Shown piece after piece: positions 3,700-18,004 of a stretch of DNA of 64,000 bases. Location: assembly GCA_016929415.1 (NCBI GenBank), contig JAFGIW010000157.1:124001-188000 (forward strand), written 5' to 3'. A program made the translations under genes and the position numbers. Within the stretch, counting starts at the first letter, position 1. Each line of letters starts with the position of its first letter. Source of the stretch: Chitinispirillaceae bacterium (lineage in GTDB: Bacteria > Fibrobacterota > Chitinivibrionia > Chitinivibrionales > Chitinispirillaceae). The notes beneath the pieces were generated by a model that was not told where the DNA came from, ran no database searches, and saw only the letters and a list, made by a program, of their open reading frames with translations.

Positions 3700-3765
3700 A
3701 TGCTCCCGTCCGCGTCCGGAAATCAAATCGCCTATCTTGACATGCAGCGGAGCAAGACTAAGTGA
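3700..3765 (+). CDS. 21-codon leader peptide coupled to the next gene
   Basis: ATG at 3700 is preceded by a near-perfect AAGGAGGAG ribosome-binding site at about 3687-3695. The frame encodes MLPSASGNQIAYLDMQRSKTK and ends with TGA at 3763-3765, which overlaps the GTG start (3762-3764) of the next gene in a GTGA arrangement. That geometry suggests translational coupling: ribosomes finishing the leader re-initiate at 3762, which has no good ribosome-binding site of its own. Alternatively a frameshift has split one longer gene. Confidence 0.45.
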   Translation: MLPSASGNQIAYLDMQRSKTK

Positions 3766-4478
3766 AGCGTATTCCTATTCAAAAAGAAAAAGGTGCAGTG
3801 GTCAGGCAATTGGCCGTCAAGGCGGGTAGAGTGTTACAAGGCGAGCACATTAGGCGCCTTGGGCGCTTTAGCATCCCGCTTATTTTTTTCAGTTGCTGTT
3901 TTATTTTCCTGTTGCGCTATATCGATCCGGCCGTCATCTATTCAAGCAACGGCATTAACATCCATACGTATGTCACACTCATGCATGCGACGTATGCCTT
4001 CTCTTATACAGACCTATTGTATCGACACCTGTTCATTCTCGAACTGACGCCGGAGTATCTGCGGGAAAACACCATCGCCGCGGAACCAATTGACCGCTAC
4101 TGTACCTATCGCCTCCTTAACTTCCAGTACAGTTACTGGAGAGATCTTCGCGTATGTCAGCGAGACTTGACCTCCTTTGCCGAGACTATGCTCGTGAATA
4201 CACAGAACTACACACGGAACGAGGCGGGGAACGACGCTTTTAAATGCGTCAACTGCCATATGCCGATGAACAACGATCCGAGCCGCTTCGTACTGCAGTT
4301 GCGCAGTAAGGCCGGCGGCGTCGAAACGCTCATCGCAATCGATGACACCATCGCCACCCTGTCGTCTCGGTTCGGCCATGCGGCTTGGCATCCGAGCGGC
4401 AGATATATCGCATTCGCGATCTACAAAGTGCAGCAGTATTTCCACGCCGTGGGCGGGCAGTTTTTATTAAACGCTTAA
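3762..4478 (+). CDS. Truncated PD40/TolB-like protein with one CxxCH motif
   Basis: The 238-residue product has an N-terminal membrane segment (about residues 37-52) and a domain ending in CVNCH, a possible haem c site, followed by a segment with the pattern AAWHPSGRYIAFAIYK. That pattern matches the start of a PD40/TolB-type beta-propeller in larger envelope proteins I recall from Bacteroidetes-like genomes, which continue with several more blades. Here the frame stops about one blade in, at residue 238. The protein is therefore probably a shortened remnant, or the CxxCH part works alone. The start is GTG 3762, coupled to the leader at 3700. Confidence 0.5.
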   Translation: MKRIPIQKEKGAVVRQLAVKAGRVLQGEHIRRLGRFSIPLIFFSCCFIFLLRYIDPAVIYSSNGINIHTYVTLMHATYAFSYTDLLYRHLFILELTPEYLRENTIAAEPIDRYCTYRLLNFQYSYWRDLRVCQRDLTSFAETMLVNTQNYTRNEAGNDAFKCVNCHMPMNNDPSRFVLQLRSKAGGVETLIAIDDTIATLSSRFGHAAWHPSGRYIAFAIYKVQQYFHAVGGQFLLNA

Positions 4479-4558: not shown

Positions 4559-5038
4559 ATGGATATTAAAGCGTCATATGCGCTTCTGGACAAGATTCTT
4601 GTTCTGAAGAAAAACGTCCTTTTTTCGACGGTCTCGACCAGCGAGTTGCGTGCCGTCGCAGAAGTCGCGGAGGAACTTCATTTCAAGCCCGGCGAGCTGA
4701 TTGTCAAAGAGGACGATATCGGCGATGCGCTCTTTCTGATACGAAACGGATCGGTGCGGGTAGCGAAGCGCGTCGGTGCCGACCGTACCATAGATCTGGC
4801 TTCCATGGGGGAGGGGGAGTGTTTCGGGGAGATGGCGGCAATCGATGAGGAGGTGCGGTCCGCGACGGTATCGGCGCGTCAGGAGTGCGTCGTTTTGCGT
4901 ATAAGTAAAGATGATCTTTACGATGTTCTGCGTGATAACCCACAGATCGGCATCGAACTGCTGCGCATTTTCGTCAAACGGCTTCGCCGGGCGAACAGCC
5001 GGATCGAAGAGCTGTCACTGTCATCGGACAGGGGATGA
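4559..5038 (+). CDS. Single-domain cyclic-nucleotide-binding protein
   Basis: This 159-residue protein is a CRP-type cNMP-binding domain with its phosphate-binding cassette intact: FGE at residues 89-91 and RSA at 100-102. The usual C-terminal helix-turn-helix is absent; after the domain only a charged helix (RIFVKRLRRANSRIEEL) remains. It therefore cannot act as a standard CRP regulator and more likely senses a nucleotide or works as a partner protein. It opens a run of six same-strand genes, with only three bases between its stop and the next start. ATG 4559 has no ribosome-binding site. Confidence 0.85.
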   Translation: MDIKASYALLDKILVLKKNVLFSTVSTSELRAVAEVAEELHFKPGELIVKEDDIGDALFLIRNGSVRVAKRVGADRTIDLASMGEGECFGEMAAIDEEVRSATVSARQECVVLRISKDDLYDVLRDNPQIGIELLRIFVKRLRRANSRIEELSLSSDRG

Positions 5039-5041
5039 TGA

Positions 5042-6490
5042 ATGGAACGCCGTCTGTTACAGATAATCGCGGTACTTGCCAGCGGACTTACGCTCGTCGG
5101 ATGTACGCCTCGTCCGCAGGTGCTGGTGCTCATCAGCATGATGGCGGATCAGGAGGCCTACTTTAAAAATGAGCTGGTGCCGGCGTTCGAGAAGAAATAC
5201 CCCTCCGTCATCGAGGTGATCCATTACGGGAGCACCGACAGCATCGAGGACATCATGCGGCAGCGGGCGGGAACTATATCACTTGTAAAAGTACCTTTCG
5301 ACAAGGCTGGGCCGCTCATGCGCAAAGGAATGTTCGCGCCCCTGAGTTCGGTGCTGGCGGGGGACGGGCTCAAAAAGTTCAAGGATGCGTACCTTCTTAC
5401 ATCGCTCGGAGCCATGGATGGAAAACAGTACCTCGTTCCCCGGAAATTCGAGACGCGCATCATGGTATATTGCAAAAGCAAGGTCGCCGACGCCGCCGCG
5501 TCGTGGCGGACATGGAAGGACTCGATCGACGCGGTACTGAAGCATTACAACGGATACGGACTGCCCTCGACGTACCTGCTGGAGGATGATCCGGAGCAGT
5601 GGGACTATTTTGATATCTTCGTTGCGGGGTGGATATGGGGGCATACCCTTTACAACGGGAAGGTACAATCGCGGATCGGCCATCGCGGAAAACGGTATTC
5701 AGGAACCACGCTGCGGGTTATTGACCGGATATTTCAGCTCGGCGGAGACAGCAGCGCGGTGTTGTCGATGAAGGGAGACGCCGTTGTTGATGCGATCTGC
5801 TGGGAGGCGATATATACGGCGGCGGGAATTTACAATGAAAAAATGTGGAGTGAACGGTGGAGCGGCTCCGATATCTGGCAGCGGTTTGCTTCCGGAGACG
5901 TTTTTCTCTCCTTCATGACGCAACTTGACTGTTTTTTTCTCCACGGGACGGGAAGCGATAACCTCGACGGTTTTTTCCAGCTCCCGGAAGATATGGGCGT
6001 CGCGACCATGCCGCGCGCATGTTCGGTGCAGCTTGACGCGGCAGGAATACCGCATAACGGCAGCAAGGCGGTTACCACCGGCGGGTGGTGGTGGGCGATT
6101 CCCGCCGATGCCCCCTCTCCGGCGCTTGGATTTGAACTTGCATCCTTTATTTCGGGGACATCCGCACAGATACAGGAGTGCTCGCGCTTCGGTATGATTC
6201 CAGTACGAAAGGATATCCTCAGCGATATGTCGATGATGTTCGGCGGGGGATGGATCAAGAACATCTATGAAATGTCATTCAAGCAACTGGTAAAAAACGG
6301 GTATACGGTGCTGCCGGGGAGCAGCAACTTCAATGAGGTCGGAAGGTTGTATCTCGATCTCATCGACGAAGTTATTGTGAACCGGCACTGGGCGGCGGAG
6401 GGAGCATTCCCGCAGCGCGAGTATATCCGGGAGGTCATAACCTCCCTGTATCAACCGAAGATAGTGCAGACCCTGCAGACCGTACCGTGA
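5042..6490 (+). CDS. Orphan extracellular solute-binding lipoprotein (family 1)
   Basis: The 482-residue product has a lipoprotein signal with lipobox LVGC (Cys21) and the overall pattern of family 1 solute-binding proteins: an N-terminal lobe with EAYFKNELVPAFEKKYP, and a later segment GGWWWAIPADAPSPALGFEL. Such proteins normally deliver sugars to an ABC importer, but no permease or ATPase gene is nearby. It may bind a ligand for signalling instead. AGGGG seven bases before ATG 5042 supports the start. It is tightly linked to the cNMP-binding gene upstream and the TPR gene 40 bp downstream. Confidence 0.78.
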   Translation: MERRLLQIIAVLASGLTLVGCTPRPQVLVLISMMADQEAYFKNELVPAFEKKYPSVIEVIHYGSTDSIEDIMRQRAGTISLVKVPFDKAGPLMRKGMFAPLSSVLAGDGLKKFKDAYLLTSLGAMDGKQYLVPRKFETRIMVYCKSKVADAAASWRTWKDSIDAVLKHYNGYGLPSTYLLEDDPEQWDYFDIFVAGWIWGHTLYNGKVQSRIGHRGKRYSGTTLRVIDRIFQLGGDSSAVLSMKGDAVVDAICWEAIYTAAGIYNEKMWSERWSGSDIWQRFASGDVFLSFMTQLDCFFLHGTGSDNLDGFFQLPEDMGVATMPRACSVQLDAAGIPHNGSKAVTTGGWWWAIPADAPSPALGFELASFISGTSAQIQECSRFGMIPVRKDILSDMSMMFGGGWIKNIYEMSFKQLVKNGYTVLPGSSNFNEVGRLYLDLIDEVIVNRHWAAEGAFPQREYIREVITSLYQPKIVQTLQTVP

Positions 6491-6530
6491 CGGACGGGCA
6501 GGAAGCATCATCGCAAGGAAAGTAAAACGT

Positions 6531-7988
6531 ATGGACGAGCGCAGTGCAGAATTGACCGATTTACAGAAGGCGTACCGTGACGATCCGGAAAACCGCCCGG
6601 CGGCGCTGAACCTGGCGCAGCGCTACTGCGATCTCGGGTGGTTCAACGAGGCGATTGAATTATACCAGGCGGCGTTTGAACGCAGTCCGGATGATGCCAT
6701 GATTCTGCTCGAGTACGGCAATACCGCTTTTAAAAAAGGGGATTACACCAGTGCGGTACGGCTGTTTACCCGGCTGACGGAACGGCATCCTGATCGGATC
6801 GAGGGATGGAACAATCTCGGCATCGCCCTGACAAAATGTAATAACCATGAAAACGCCCGGGAGGCGTTTCACCGCGTCCTGGAGATCGAACCGGAAAACT
6901 CCGGGGCGCTCCTGAATATGGGCAATTATTATTTCGGCAAACAAGAATACGGTAAGGCACGCACCTATTTCGAACGCGCCTGTGCGGTGCGCGCCGATTT
7001 TCCCGATGCATGGTTCAATGTGGGAAATGCGTGCATCGAATTGAAATGCTACGAGGACGCCCGAACCGCTTTTGAAAAGGCACTGCGGTACCGGCGGGAA
7101 TTTCCCTCGGCGCTCAAGAACCTCGGTTGGGTATACGAACATGACGGCCGTCTCGCCGAGGCGCAGCAGTGTTATTCGGAAGCGATTCTCATCAACAAGG
7201 CCGATGCGAACCTCTATGTCAATTTTGGAAACGTGCAGGTGCGTCTCAAAAAGTACGATGAGGCGAAGAAGTACTTTCTCAAGGCGGTACGGCTCTCCCC
7301 GAACAACCTGCACGGCTGGCTGGGACTGCGCGGCTACGCACTGGCAAAAGGCGATGTGGAGACGTTCATGCGTGCGACCCTGGCGGTACTACCCCGGTTG
7401 AGCGATGAGATGCTCGCGCAGAGCATCGCCGTGCTCTACGACCTGCATCAAATTGACAAAGCGGATGAACTGTTGGAGCAGGCGGACCGCCTCGGCCGCG
7501 GCGGCGATCTGCTCGACCTTCAGCGCCTATTGCTCTATAAGCGCCAGGAAAAGCACCCGGAAAAAACTAAGGTGATTGCCGATCGTATTTCCGGATTGAC
7601 CGATCCGCCGGACGCGATCCATCGGGGCCTGGCGCGGTATTATCTGCTCACCAAAGAGTATGCCTGGGTGATCGCCTGTATCGAGCGTATGAAAGACAGG
7701 GATGCAACATCATACGGCCTTCTCTGGCGTGCGATGCTGGAGCAGGGAAAGACGGTTGAGGTGAAACGGGAAATCAGGGAATACATCGCCGTCCATCCCG
7801 AAAGCTTTGATACCTATTTTTTGCTTGCCGACATTGAGGCGAAACGGGGAAATGTCAAACGGGCCGAAACGCTGCTTGTTCACGCTTTGGACCATGGATT
7901 CAATGATATGGAGGAAATCCATGCGAACAGCGTATTGCATGATATTTTTGAATCGATGACCGGAAAACAGTTGATTGCAGATGCCTGA
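6531..7988 (+). CDS. Tetratricopeptide-repeat protein
   Basis: Of its 485 residues, about 15-270 consist of consecutive TPR units (for example AWFNVGNACIELKCYEDART and later LYVNFGNVQVRLKKYDEAKK), with weaker units towards the C-terminus. No signal peptide or membrane segment is present, so it is probably cytoplasmic and acts as a protein-protein scaffold. Its place between a surface lipoprotein gene and a coiled-coil protein gene suggests it belongs to the same complex or pathway. An AAGGAAAG sequence precedes ATG 6531. Confidence 0.85.
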   Translation: MDERSAELTDLQKAYRDDPENRPAALNLAQRYCDLGWFNEAIELYQAAFERSPDDAMILLEYGNTAFKKGDYTSAVRLFTRLTERHPDRIEGWNNLGIALTKCNNHENAREAFHRVLEIEPENSGALLNMGNYYFGKQEYGKARTYFERACAVRADFPDAWFNVGNACIELKCYEDARTAFEKALRYRREFPSALKNLGWVYEHDGRLAEAQQCYSEAILINKADANLYVNFGNVQVRLKKYDEAKKYFLKAVRLSPNNLHGWLGLRGYALAKGDVETFMRATLAVLPRLSDEMLAQSIAVLYDLHQIDKADELLEQADRLGRGGDLLDLQRLLLYKRQEKHPEKTKVIADRISGLTDPPDAIHRGLARYYLLTKEYAWVIACIERMKDRDATSYGLLWRAMLEQGKTVEVKREIREYIAVHPESFDTYFLLADIEAKRGNVKRAETLLVHALDHGFNDMEEIHANSVLHDIFESMTGKQLIADA

Positions 7989-8037
7989 TAAATAACTTTA
8001 TTGTGTATCAATTTTCCTTTTTTGAAAGGCGGTTCCC

Positions 8038-9264
8038 ATGCGACGCAATGAACGAATTAACGAATCCCTGTTCGGCATCGAAAACAGCACCGTCGATCCA
8101 AACCGGTTTTATTCTATCCTGCTCGATGCACGTGCGGCTTCGGTTTCGGAGAATATGTGCGATATTGCGGAAAAATTGCTTACCGGCGAGAAGGAAAACG
8201 CCAAGGGGGCGCTGGAACATCTCTGGCGGCTGAAAAAAAATCTTTTTTCGGGGAAAAACGGCACCCTCGACCTGCTTATCAACTATTACCAGGAAAAAAT
8301 GGACATACTGCGCGGAAAGGAAGAACACCTGAAAAAGGTAAGCCTCGATTCGAGAAATCTACTGGAGGAGAAACGGAAAAAAGACGAAGAGGTGGCAACT
8401 GTAAAGCAGCAGGCGGCCGATTGCACGAAGGAACTCTCCGATCTAACCGAAAAACTCGACAAGCTTAAAATTAAGGAGCAGGAACTTACCCTGATCGAAC
8501 ATCAGCTGCGCGAGGAACTCAACCGGAATGAAAATGAAATTGTCAATGGACTTTACGAAATAATACTGACACAGCAGGAAGCGGCCGCGGAAGAGTCGGC
8601 CATGGCGGCTTCCGGCCAGCCCTCCGACGTACCGGCGGAAATCCCTCCTCCTCCCCCTGCCGCCGTTGACGAACTGCTGCCGGCGCAGCCCGATACCGCT
8701 TCCATTACCGCAGTTTTTGAACCCCCGGTGATACCTGCACCGCCGGAGGAAAATACGGTTCCCGGCAAGGAAGATAATGGTCAGGAGGTCGCGCTGCAGG
8801 AGGAGACATGCGTCCCGCCGCTAAGGACCGAAACGCCGCCGTTTCCCAAATCGGTCGTTAAAACAACCGGAGGAAGGGTCATCGGGGAGTACTATTACGA
8901 CGGAAAAGTTTACAAAAACGAGCGGCATTATATCTTCAACGCCGCATTTTTCGGTGAGGAACTTCTGAATTATACCCGTCAGCTGAAACAGAAATTCGAG
9001 CTTTCGATCTATACCGAAATGCTGCAGATGGTCCAGGACGCGGCAAAACGCATCACCGAAAACAAACGCTTGCATTTTGAGGTTGCCACGAACGAAATTC
9101 TCAATGAAAAGACCGTTAAGCGGCTCTGGCAGGATGCTAAGCTGCGGTCAATCGACGAGGTTGAACGGTTCGGCGTACGTTTACGGGCAAAAATCGCGGC
9201 CCTGGGAAACAACTACATCAGTATTCTTAAGGAGCAGATGCAGCGGTGTATCGAGAAATCCTGA
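8038..9264 (+). CDS. Unrecognised coiled-coil protein with Pro-rich linker
   Basis: The 408-residue protein has an N-terminal helical part and a long coiled coil (about residues 95-180, rich in E, K, L and Q). A Pro/Ala-rich linker (about 185-275, including PPPPPAAVDELLPAQP) separates this from a helical C-terminal domain (about 285-408). No signal peptide is seen. I do not recognise the family. GAAAGGCGG before ATG 8038 fixes the start. Its last 19 bases overlap the start of the membrane AraC gene, which suggests coupled expression and a joint role. Confidence 0.7.
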   Translation: MRRNERINESLFGIENSTVDPNRFYSILLDARAASVSENMCDIAEKLLTGEKENAKGALEHLWRLKKNLFSGKNGTLDLLINYYQEKMDILRGKEEHLKKVSLDSRNLLEEKRKKDEEVATVKQQAADCTKELSDLTEKLDKLKIKEQELTLIEHQLREELNRNENEIVNGLYEIILTQQEAAAEESAMAASGQPSDVPAEIPPPPPAAVDELLPAQPDTASITAVFEPPVIPAPPEENTVPGKEDNGQEVALQEETCVPPLRTETPPFPKSVVKTTGGRVIGEYYYDGKVYKNERHYIFNAAFFGEELLNYTRQLKQKFELSIYTEMLQMVQDAAKRITENKRLHFEVATNEILNEKTVKRLWQDAKLRSIDEVERFGVRLRAKIAALGNNYISILKEQMQRCIEKS

Positions 9265-10115
9265 AAACAGCAGGTTTTCAGGTAAAACCAGTCTGGTTAC
9301 AAAGTAGTATCATTGTTATCTGCCTGAGCGGATGGTTGTCTGCGGCCAATGCAGAGTCTACAGCCGTATCAGTGACGGGTGATACGGTCGCCGCTTTATC
9401 CTCGGTGGTTCCAAAGAGCGTCGGCCCGGATACGAAGCCCAAGGCAGCGGAGAAAAAGGCGTCCGGGGCGACAGCGTCGCTGTCGGTAGCGCACGGCAGG
9501 GTCGGCTCGCTGCAGCCGGGTGCGCAGAAACAGGCGGTTTCCCCACCGTCACCCCAGCGGCAGAAATTCATCGGCGTTGCATCTGCAATCATCAGGGCGC
9601 TTGGAGAAAAAGTTTCCGGACCGTTTAAACGTATCGCCGGAGTGAAAGTGCATTTGAAAAAAAGCTGTTTTCTCATCGGTTCGATCGTACTTGTCCTCAT
9701 CACCCTCCGGTTTTATCAAAATTACCGCGAACGGGGCCGTTTTATGACGACGACGCGGTTGTCGATCATGGATAAGGAAATACAGCGGGCCTGCCGGTAT
9801 ATCGAGGCGCATTACGACGACCCCGCGCTTGACCTGCAGGGTATTTGCAGCGCACTGGTGACCGGCGGCGCTTTCCTCGAAGCCCTTTTCATAAAAGAGC
9901 TGGGTCTGACGGTTGACGACTTTATCACGCAGGTCCGTATCAACCGTGCAAAAATTGCGCTTCGGAAAAATCCGGGACTACCGGTCGACGTGCTCGCCCG
10001 GTCGGTCGGGTTCGGCGATTCGGAGGTTTTTATGAAGCGCTTCGCGGACATTACCGGTATTGATTGTCAATCATACCGGAAAGCACTTGCACACGACAAC
10101 GATGCCGCGGCTTAG
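9246..10115 (+). CDS. Membrane-tethered AraC-type DNA-binding protein
   Basis: The 289-residue protein has an N-terminal hydrophobic segment or signal (about residues 16-36), an Ala/Pro/Lys-rich extracytoplasmic part, a second membrane segment (about 141-157) and a C-terminal AraC-type double helix-turn-helix (about 177-281). The latter includes NRAKIALRKNPGLPVDVLAR and SVGFGDSEVFMKRFADITG. The predicted topology puts the HTH in the cytoplasm. The first HTH is somewhat degenerate. The start is GTG 9246, inside the end of the upstream gene, with AAGGAG about 11 bases before it. It probably reports an envelope signal to transcription, though DNA binding is inferred only from the fold. Confidence 0.72.
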   Translation: MYREILKTAGFQVKPVWLQSSIIVICLSGWLSAANAESTAVSVTGDTVAALSSVVPKSVGPDTKPKAAEKKASGATASLSVAHGRVGSLQPGAQKQAVSPPSPQRQKFIGVASAIIRALGEKVSGPFKRIAGVKVHLKKSCFLIGSIVLVLITLRFYQNYRERGRFMTTTRLSIMDKEIQRACRYIEAHYDDPALDLQGICSALVTGGAFLEALFIKELGLTVDDFITQVRINRAKIALRKNPGLPVDVLARSVGFGDSEVFMKRFADITGIDCQSYRKALAHDNDAAA

Positions 10116-11535
10116 AACGATGATTCCCTGGGGGTTGTACGCGGCGTTGCTTCCGGCCATGCCGGCATACGGCATCGAAGCAACAACTCCTTCGTTCTCA
10201 AGCCGATTGCCGATTGTCGATACGCTTGACGTTTTCCTGCAGGCCGTTCCCGTCGGTTCGATGATCGGTAGCACGACAAAGAGGGGTGGCTTCATAGAAA
10301 ACGTCATCAGTCTTTCGGTCGAAGTGTCCGACCAGCACGGTTTCGGCAGGCAGCACCTTTCTCTGGAAGAAGTCCGCCGCTACGATACCACAGGAGCGCT
10401 GTGTGAAGCTCGGCAAAAGATGCACAGCGCGGCAGGTATCACGACATGGCGGCTGGACATAGATACTTCAGGAACATGGCTGATTTCCGTTACGACTGCC
10501 GGTGTTACCACCAGCCGGCCGGTCAAACCGGTCCCGGAAAAGATAACCACCATGGCGTCACTCTATGAGGGCCTGTTCTTGAATACCCTGCAATGCGGCA
10601 CATCGTGGACCGATACCTCGATTGAACTGACCTCGGGTGAGAGCATCATTTCCGAAACCCGCTGTGTCGAAATGCCCTCGGAGCGCAACGGGGACTGCTG
10701 GGTATTTGATTGCTCGAACAGCCTGCTGCAGCGGCGCGAGCTCTGGAAAGTCGACCGGCAGGGAGCGACCGTCTACCGGGACATGTATCCCTATGCCGGC
10801 AGAAAAAAAGGAACCGCGCACCGTGGGGCGGCATCGGACACCGGTGCGGCAGTGTCGCTTTTCGAAATGATGAAAGTCAAAAAATCACGTGCGGTCCGTC
10901 CAGGACGCGAACGGATCGCGATTTCATTTGACAACAATCAGCCGGTCGATCAGTCGGTGGCGGCTTTTTTCAGAAAGCGGGGAACGAAATTCATTCTCAA
11001 TCAGCTCCCCGACAGGTGCAGGCAGACACCGGACACGCTTCCGGTCGAGCTGCAGCACGCCTGTCTTGCCGCGACACCGACCCTGCAGACGACCCATCCG
11101 AAAATCAGGCTGCTTGCCGACAGCCTTCACGGCGAATCAATTTCCGTTTGTGAATTAATCGGCAGGTACAACCGGTACGTCTACACCGCTCTTCAGAAAC
11201 GGAGCAGCCCGACTTTTTCCAGTGCGCTTGAGACCCTCGAAGCGGGGTACGGCGACTGCGGCGAACATGCGGTACTGCTGGCCGCCCTGCTGCGGGCGTC
11301 GGGAATCCCGGCGCGCGTCGTGATGGGAATTATTTATTCCGTTGAAGGTGAAGGTTATTTTTATCATGCCTGGGTGATGGCATACGCCGGGCAATGGATA
11401 TTCGCCGACCCGTCCCATGACTGCTTTCCGGCATACAAGGATCGCATACCGCTCATTATCGACGATGATGGAACGAAAATGATGGGGCTGGCAAAGATTA
11501 TCGGAAGAATTCAACTACACTATGTCGACAAATAA
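10102..11535 (+). CDS. Periplasmic transglutaminase-like protein
   Basis: The protein begins with a signal-like segment and carries a transglutaminase core near its C-terminus. The triad is visible as Cys386 in YGDCGEHA, His422 in YHAW and Asp437 in FADPSHD (numbered from ATG 10102). The N-terminal 300 residues are beta-rich and unassigned. In bacteria such domains usually act as proteases or amidases on peptides. The exact start is uncertain: GTG or ATG codons at 10060, 10102 and 10120 all overlap or abut the AraC gene, and none has a good ribosome-binding site, which suggests coupling. It closes the six-gene cluster. Confidence 0.78.
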   Translation: MPRLRTMIPWGLYAALLPAMPAYGIEATTPSFSSRLPIVDTLDVFLQAVPVGSMIGSTTKRGGFIENVISLSVEVSDQHGFGRQHLSLEEVRRYDTTGALCEARQKMHSAAGITTWRLDIDTSGTWLISVTTAGVTTSRPVKPVPEKITTMASLYEGLFLNTLQCGTSWTDTSIELTSGESIISETRCVEMPSERNGDCWVFDCSNSLLQRRELWKVDRQGATVYRDMYPYAGRKKGTAHRGAASDTGAAVSLFEMMKVKKSRAVRPGRERIAISFDNNQPVDQSVAAFFRKRGTKFILNQLPDRCRQTPDTLPVELQHACLAATPTLQTTHPKIRLLADSLHGESISVCELIGRYNRYVYTALQKRSSPTFSSALETLEAGYGDCGEHAVLLAALLRASGIPARVVMGIIYSVEGEGYFYHAWVMAYAGQWIFADPSHDCFPAYKDRIPLIIDDDGTKMMGLAKIIGRIQLHYVDK

Positions 11536-17173: not shown

Positions 17174-17953
17174 TCAAGGCTGTCCCGCAATCTTTTTATT
17201 GGTTTCCACCAGCCTTTGCGAAAGGGTCTTTGAAATCGCAAGATTGACCGAGGGTTTCAACTTGGCCAGGGAGAGAAATTCATCCTTCCGCATAACCTGA
17301 ACCGAGCATTCGGTTTTCGCGGTTACGGTCGCCGAACGGGCACTTTCGGTAAAAAAACTGATTTCACCGAACACTTCACCCGATTCCACCATGCCGACCT
17401 CTACGTTTTTTACGGTGACGACGGCAATACCCTGGATCATCTGGTAAATTTCGAGGGCCGGTGCCCCTTCGGCAATGATGATCGTTCCGGGGTCGAAGGC
17501 CCGGATCGTGAAATCGGGGTGAAGGTCGTCGGAACTGTACGATGCGCAGAGAATATGCATCAAGGTCGATTGTACGGCGGTATAACGGAGAAAGTGAACA
17601 ATGTCACCGGGATGCGCAGCAAGGTGGTCCGCAATTTCCTGGCTGCCGAAAATGCGGATCGCGGTCCCGAAATCGCTTACGCAGCGGCATTCCGAAGCGC
17701 TGCCGAGGGACGTGAGAGGAAGAAGGTCGCCCGTTTCATAGAGACGCACCATTTTATTCCGGTGGTAATAGTTGAAGATACCTTTATCGATAGAGACCCA
17801 TCCGTCGGTGACGCATGAGAACAGGTCGGTGTCCCGGTCGAGCTTCATCGGTGTGCCGGCGGTGGAAAGGGACTTTATTATGGCATTGCCGAGCGCTTTG
17901 GCTTCTTTGTCAAGTAAATCGACCGAAGGGGGCACTTCGATATAGGCGATCAT
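17174..17953 (-). CDS. Tandem cNMP-binding-domain protein without HTH
   Basis: The 259-residue protein holds two CRP-type barrels. The C-terminal one (about 145-255) has an intact phosphate cassette, VFGE at 194-197 and RSA at 206-208. The N-terminal half looks like the same fold (FSCVTDGWVSIDKG, then YETGDLLPLTSLG) but lacks the FGE and RSA signatures. No DNA-binding or catalytic domain is attached. ATG 17953 is preferred over the frame start at 18004 because GAAGGGAG lies upstream, and 18004 would lie inside the -35 box. Confidence 0.83.
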   Translation of the reverse strand: MIAYIEVPPSVDLLDKEAKALGNAIIKSLSTAGTPMKLDRDTDLFSCVTDGWVSIDKGIFNYYHRNKMVRLYETGDLLPLTSLGSASECRCVSDFGTAIRIFGSQEIADHLAAHPGDIVHFLRYTAVQSTLMHILCASYSSDDLHPDFTIRAFDPGTIIIAEGAPALEIYQMIQGIAVVTVKNVEVGMVESGEVFGEISFFTESARSATVTAKTECSVQVMRKDEFLSLAKLKPSVNLAISKTLSQRLVETNKKIAGQP

Positions 17954-17975
17954 GGTGATACTCCCTTCGATCGAA

Positions 17976-18004
17976 ATTATACGGCGATACCGCGCTGAAA
18001 TCAA
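17976..18004 (-). promoter_or_regulatory. Sigma-70-type promoter of the tandem cNMP gene
   Basis: On the minus strand TTGATT (18004-17999) is followed after exactly 17 bases by TATAAT (17981-17976). Transcription would begin near 17969, some 16 bases before ATG 17953, leaving room for the GAAGGGAG ribosome-binding site. This is one of the clearest promoters in the window. Confidence 0.75.

Follow-up and report, generated by a model that had tools for sequence, protein, structure and literature searches.

Six neighbouring genes in the window (the whole 64,000-nucleotide stretch of DNA analysed), here lettered A to F, form a unit conserved across one order within the polysaccharide-degrading phylum Fibrobacterota. 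This conservation is well supported, and the genes appear to encode a conserved cell-envelope machine. The parts are of known kinds: a solute-binding protein (SBP), a cyclic-nucleotide-binding domain (cNBD), a TPR protein, an AraC-type domain and a transglutaminase-like enzyme. A literature search for the six-gene unit, with most subscription journals outside its reach, found no description of it, and in the literature searched we likewise found none of the assembly, its fixed order, protein D or the degenerate AraC-type domain.

A block of fixed gene order that moves as one piece

All six genes lie on the plus strand. A (4559-5038) encodes a stand-alone cyclic-nucleotide-binding domain protein of 159 residues (Pfam PF00027), and B (5042-6490) a family-1 solute-binding lipoprotein of 482 residues (SBP_bac_8, lipobox) that comes without permeases. 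C (6531-7988) encodes a cytoplasmic TPR protein of 485 residues (TPR_2, no hydrophobic segment), and D (8038-9264) a cytoplasmic coiled-coil protein of 408 residues, characterized by alignment and an AlphaFold model and belonging to no Pfam family. E (9246-10115, GTG start) encodes a single-pass membrane protein with a degenerate AraC-type domain, as judged from HTH_18 and a transmembrane (TM) scan, and F (10102-11535, ATG start) an exported transglutaminase-like protein (Transglut_core) of 477 residues including the start Met. The longest open reading frame for F begins at a TTG at 10060, a start that we replaced by the ATG at 10102. Two junctions are overlaps, of 19 nt for D with E and of 14 nt for E with F, and 49 nt separate C from D. 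The first-pass annotation had called six open reading frames here, and all of them were found, on one strand and densely packed; Pfam also agrees with the families it had assigned (cNMP without HTH, SBP, TPR, none for D, HTH_18 and Transglut_core). Scans for promoters (12 sites versus 9.3 in shuffles) and for terminators (18 versus 13.7) came out near the shuffle expectation. The window genome (G000) is a 5.08-Mb draft, in which the block lies on the contig labelled C224, flanked by a xylanase region on one side and by lipid/glycan genes on the other.

We searched 121 genomes, using D and F and, in a second round, B and the domain of E, and mapped about 40 stretches from relatives (Chitinispirillaceae, Chitinivibrionales and other Fibrobacterota MAGs) for all six genes, with gene calls in the relatives made by a simple longest-ORF script. 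Every genome is a draft or a MAG; a gene counted as absent is one that went undetected at the thresholds used and may have fallen into an assembly gap, and ortholog numbers count sequences, not independent events. The first-pass annotation had staked its proposal on gene order in other Fibrobacterota, and there the six families do keep company, in an order that is fixed in every testable pair. Wherever neighbours share a stretch, order and strand are unchanged (A-B in 11/11, B-C in 16/16, C-D in 23/23, D-E in 24/24 and E-F in 15/15), and a single locus lacks E, with D followed directly by F. Chance falls far short of explaining such conservation, which spans five families of the order (f1, f2, f3, f5 and f6); in family f4 the block is interrupted by contig ends, and in family f7 D or E alone is retained. 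Intergenic gaps in the relatives are mostly short, and D and E overlap in 15 of 24 cases, mostly by 16-19 nt. The C-D gap, at 325-487 nt in six relatives, is long enough that a separate promoter before D is possible there, and where the gap is long, as in several relatives, the block may be transcribed in two parts. The most persistent gene is E, which stands alone beside the argA-like gene in G004 and G013 and is retained together with C in G019, G022 and G023, where D is missing.

In many relatives, the block has a usual context, with an argA-like gene and a transporter-HEAT gene (c5 and c12) on one side and creatininase, M16, folK and panC genes on the other. In the window genome, the c5-c12 pair stands without the block on contig C158, and A-F are intact at a new place. 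Because A-F are intact and the usual neighbours were left behind, we conclude that the block moved as one piece in the window's genus (g1). Two genomes of this genus have different upstream flanks, and one of them, G001, has downstream genes in common with the window. An open reading frame of 238 codons at 3762-4478 on the plus strand, immediately 5' of A, has the appearance of a deletion remnant: its residues 3-106 and 102-235 match two separate proteins whose genes, in both G003 and G001, share a strand and are ~2 kb from each other. Going by these matches, it is possibly the scar of the rearrangement that carried the block here.

The movement also bears on the view that the six are unrelated housekeeping genes with no common function, neighbours by descent only. 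The other conserved neighbours (the argA-like gene, M16 peptidases, folK and panC) do resemble housekeeping genes, but in genus g1 the block left precisely those neighbours as one piece with its overlaps kept, and elsewhere the outlying genes have been lost around a persistent E core. We therefore give this view very little credence.

A permease-less relative of an importer module

The A protein matches the Pfam cNMP_binding family (PF00027) at 1.4e-22 and has no HTH by Pfam. In its alignment, G86, G90 and R100 are invariant and position 91 is E or D, and the cNMP phosphate-binding cassette (G-E plus Arg) is present. Class III cyclase domains occur twice in the window genome. Another stand-alone protein with a cNMP domain, 276 residues long, is encoded at 17174-18004 on the minus strand and is kept with its neighbours in G001. 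Anti-phage defence was considered as a function and rejected, since PADLOC matches Pycsar-type proteins solely via the generic cNMP domain of A and gives no match for B, D, E or F.

A seventh gene, c12, encodes an unfused transporter-HEAT protein of ~865 residues and lies immediately 5' of A in six relatives (gaps of -4 to 58 nt). The link between cNBDs and transporter-HEAT proteins is already published: NTT-HEAT fusions with a cNBD downstream or fused are reported widely by Major, Embley and Williams (2017, PMC5381601). Judged by sequence, A fits the pattern given there, although the NTT Pfam match is weak here. The order of NTT-HEAT followed by cNBD is present in the six relatives; the window genome has its transporter-HEAT gene on contig C158, and the NTT/TLC match of c12 falls below the Pfam cut-off. 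As in the published pattern, the window genome also carries a three-part fusion, a 1072-residue MFS/NTT-HEAT-cNMP protein (contig C163); A is homologous to its C-terminal cNMP domain and c12 to its transporter-HEAT portion. The system here differs from those cases in two ways. First, an SBP and C-D-E-F are attached, which the accessible part of the paper does not describe for the published ones. Second, in the window's genus A is parted from the transporter-HEAT gene.

One reading of the unit would follow from this likeness, namely that it serves ATP/nucleotide or energy homeostasis, with A and the upstream transporter-HEAT protein as an NTT-HEAT/cNBD pair and the rest as accessory. The position of c12 in the six relatives and the wide reporting of such operons in PMC5381601 are what this reading has in its favour. 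But A in the window genome has been separated from the transporter-HEAT gene and not from B-F, and with the NTT/TLC match below its cut-off as well, we think the reading quite improbable.

Like the SBPs of carbohydrate ABC import, B has a lipobox (LVGC), and it matches SBP_bac_8 (8.7e-20) and also SBP_bac_1. No permease or ATPase gene adjoins the cluster-type B, either in the window or in the stretches from relatives that we examined, which bears out the earlier description of a binding lipoprotein without permeases in its cluster. That description had gone further and called B an orphan; this holds for its surroundings but not for its genome, where a second SBP of 39% identity to B is encoded with MalF, MalG and MalK. 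The operon of this paralog begins with ExbB, ExbD, ExbD, a TonB-like protein and a 386-residue protein without family, continues with the 1072-residue fusion and then runs through SBP, MalF, MalG, MalK, a small protein and a TPR protein. It is kept in relatives, and in the window genome it is apparently split over contigs C163 and C206. At loci L171, L173, L186 and L188, it is conserved in the order ExbB-ExbD-ExbD-TonB-like-386 aa-fusion-SBP-MalFGK-TPR. The operon apparently couples energised outer-membrane uptake to an ABC importer.

The two kinds of SBP separate in a quick tree of 37 sequences, which has open forks within the cluster group. The ABC-linked SBPs group cleanly in a clade of their own (SH-aLRT 99); a second clade (SH-aLRT 98) unites the cluster-type SBPs with four SBPs that could not be placed by position, being at contig edges or, in one case, at another locus. 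An SBP from another family (G041), linked to c12 and without permeases, joins the cluster clade with a lower support of 91. Elsewhere, a same-superfamily SBP without permeases lies beside priA in f11 genomes (L181, L183 and L184), and at L189 (G030) a tandem pair of cluster-type SBPs lies 5' of C. Across both groups 49 positions are conserved, many of them aromatic, which suggests a related ligand.

These relations raise the question of whether B serves the paralogous operon in trans by passing ligand to MalF/MalG/MalK, with the other genes of the block regulating uptake. The 39% identity and the 49 common positions would suit such an arrangement. Against it, five genomes that carry the cluster-type B (G006, G009, G015, G024 and G033) gave no match to a relative of MalG, the closest permease; four others (G031, G034, G037 and G039) have the ABC-type SBP with no cluster-type B detected; and the two SBP lineages are old and separate. 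We regard delivery in trans as unlikely, and the same distribution indicates that B is more than an importer subunit that has strayed from its operon. Set beside family-1 carbohydrate ABC importers (SBP, MalF, MalG and MalK), then, B is clearly a paralog of such an SBP in the same genome, but it forms a lineage of its own in a cluster without permease or ATPase. By sequence kinship, A and B belong to a module present twice in the genome, here without permeases and in the other operon with MalF, MalG and MalK. Either the permease-linked or the permease-less form of this transporter-HEAT/cNMP/SBP module may be the ancestral one.

Membrane, scaffold-like and enzyme components

The first-pass annotation had taken E, a membrane HTH protein, as the transcriptional output of the system. 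The identity of the domain is clear enough: HTH_18 is matched at 1.8e-11, exceeding the curated cut-off, and profile matches in the PDB are the DNA-binding domains of AraC and YesN-type proteins. A hydropathy scan places a strong TM segment at about residues 140-156, and the AraC-type domain occupies residues ~166-284. The predicted layout is an N-terminal signal/anchor, a variable low-complexity periplasmic stretch, the TM segment and a cytoplasmic AraC-type domain. The N-terminal hydrophobic segment is present in most E orthologs and is below threshold in the window copy. Most orthologs also have a basic flank C-terminal to the TM segment, which is consistent with a cytoplasmic location of the AraC-type domain.

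Membrane-bound AraC regulators are a known class, tied to polysaccharide genes in Saccharophagus degradans (PMC2386152), and E resembles them in joining a TM segment to an AraC-type double HTH. It would then be natural to see E as a membrane-tethered transcription factor that reads periplasmic signals via B and switches target genes, with F as a target or processing enzyme. The details of the domain speak otherwise, because the conserved DNA-contact residues of the recognition helices are absent. The sequence of helix 1 is TGxAFLEALF in almost every one of the 21 orthologs, and its T, its G and one Ala never vary. The position of AraC H213 is Ala in 20/21, and that of S212 is Glu, Gln, Asp, Asn or Ala. 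The second HTH is eroded, the position of R263 being variable in E and Arg in 7/9 canonical domains. Moreover, the E domain is acidic, with a net charge of -1 to -14 in 20/21 orthologs and 0 in one (mean about -4.8), compared with -1 to +7 (mean about +3.3) for nine canonical controls (seven domains from the same genome and two PDB chains); the difference has p=3e-5, a value to be taken as a guide only, as the nine controls are few and the E orthologs are related. A rigidly conserved helix without DNA-contact residues in an acidic domain makes a classical transcription factor role doubtful, and with it the proposed transcriptional output; we consider it rather unlikely that E is such a regulator. 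E could still bind DNA via other residues, despite the loss of the known contacts, but going by its residues the AraC-type domain has apparently stopped reading DNA. E differs from the Saccharophagus regulators in its surroundings as well: its conserved neighbours encode no polysaccharidases but a scaffold-like and a transglutaminase-like protein.

C has many TPRs (TPR_2, 1.5e-46), and a hydropathy scan detected no hydrophobic segment in any ortholog. The same scan detected no membrane segment in D, whose AlphaFold model (pLDDT 76) has a long helix at 40-191, a disordered Pro-rich linker at ~192-264 and a C-terminal domain at 271-407. D matches no Pfam or NCBIfam family, and a profile search against PDB sequences gave nothing convincing. 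Foldseek hits in the PDB were set aside as chance helical bundles, many of them BRIL fusions and none at E<=0.001. The D family appears to be confined to Fibrobacterota, to which 28 of its 29 loci belong, the other being a weak Pedobacter match; the underlying scan of 84,980 species works with short conserved peptides, and remote homologs may escape it. Within the phylum, matches in G058, G067 and G071 contain internal stops and were discarded as spurious. Outside the order, D homologs adjoin topoisomerase VI genes (G041 and G043) or a TPR gene (f11 genomes); at L097 and L090, they lie immediately 5' of the topoisomerase VI B and A genes.

F matches Transglut_core at 1.9e-17 and has the Cys-His-Asp triad of the transglutaminase-like superfamily, C385-H421-D435 (numbered from the Pro at 10105), which is invariant in 17 orthologs. 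Its AlphaFold model (pLDDT 86) has a β-rich N-terminal domain, and the best fold match in the PDB is the transglutaminase-like 3isr. F has the core and fold of 3isr (Cytophaga hutchinsonii) and of the pseudomurein endoisopeptidases PeiP and PeiW, but its N-terminal β domain is distinct, and no curated family model matches F beyond the core. From its sequence, the protease-like activity proposed in the first-pass annotation is possible.

A proposed envelope-spanning sensor and scaffold

We tentatively favour the view that the block is an importer-related, envelope-spanning sensor/scaffold module with F as its periplasmic enzyme; envelope sensing is what we infer for it. B would keep its ligand binding, probably for the same kind of ligand as its importer paralog, and would report rather than deliver. 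E would relay the signal through the inner membrane, with its AraC-type domain serving as a dock for other proteins, of which D and C are the likeliest. A would render the complex responsive to cyclic nucleotide. F would be the periplasmic output, cutting or cross-linking amide bonds of an envelope polymer. The core would then consist of E, D and C, with A, B and F as input/output add-ons that are missing from reduced genomes. Adjacency is our only reason to infer docking between D and E, and some genomes have kept E but not D; the target of F could also have nothing to do with B or E. The fullest form of the proposal is a transmembrane signalling complex of new architecture, in which an importer-type SBP is the sensor, an AraC-type domain is a membrane-proximal dock, a TPR/coiled-coil scaffold receives a cyclic-nucleotide input and an exported transglutaminase-like protein is the output. 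Such a complex is possible, although we would not call it probable.

For the order, the block amounts to an envelope module of wide distribution and traceable kinship, in which transporter-HEAT, cNMP and SBP components are found twice, once in company with an ABC permease. The permease-less copy has been joined instead to scaffold, membrane and enzyme genes. Two ideas can be tested on it: that a binding protein may serve signalling rather than transport, and that an AraC-type domain has apparently given up reading DNA.
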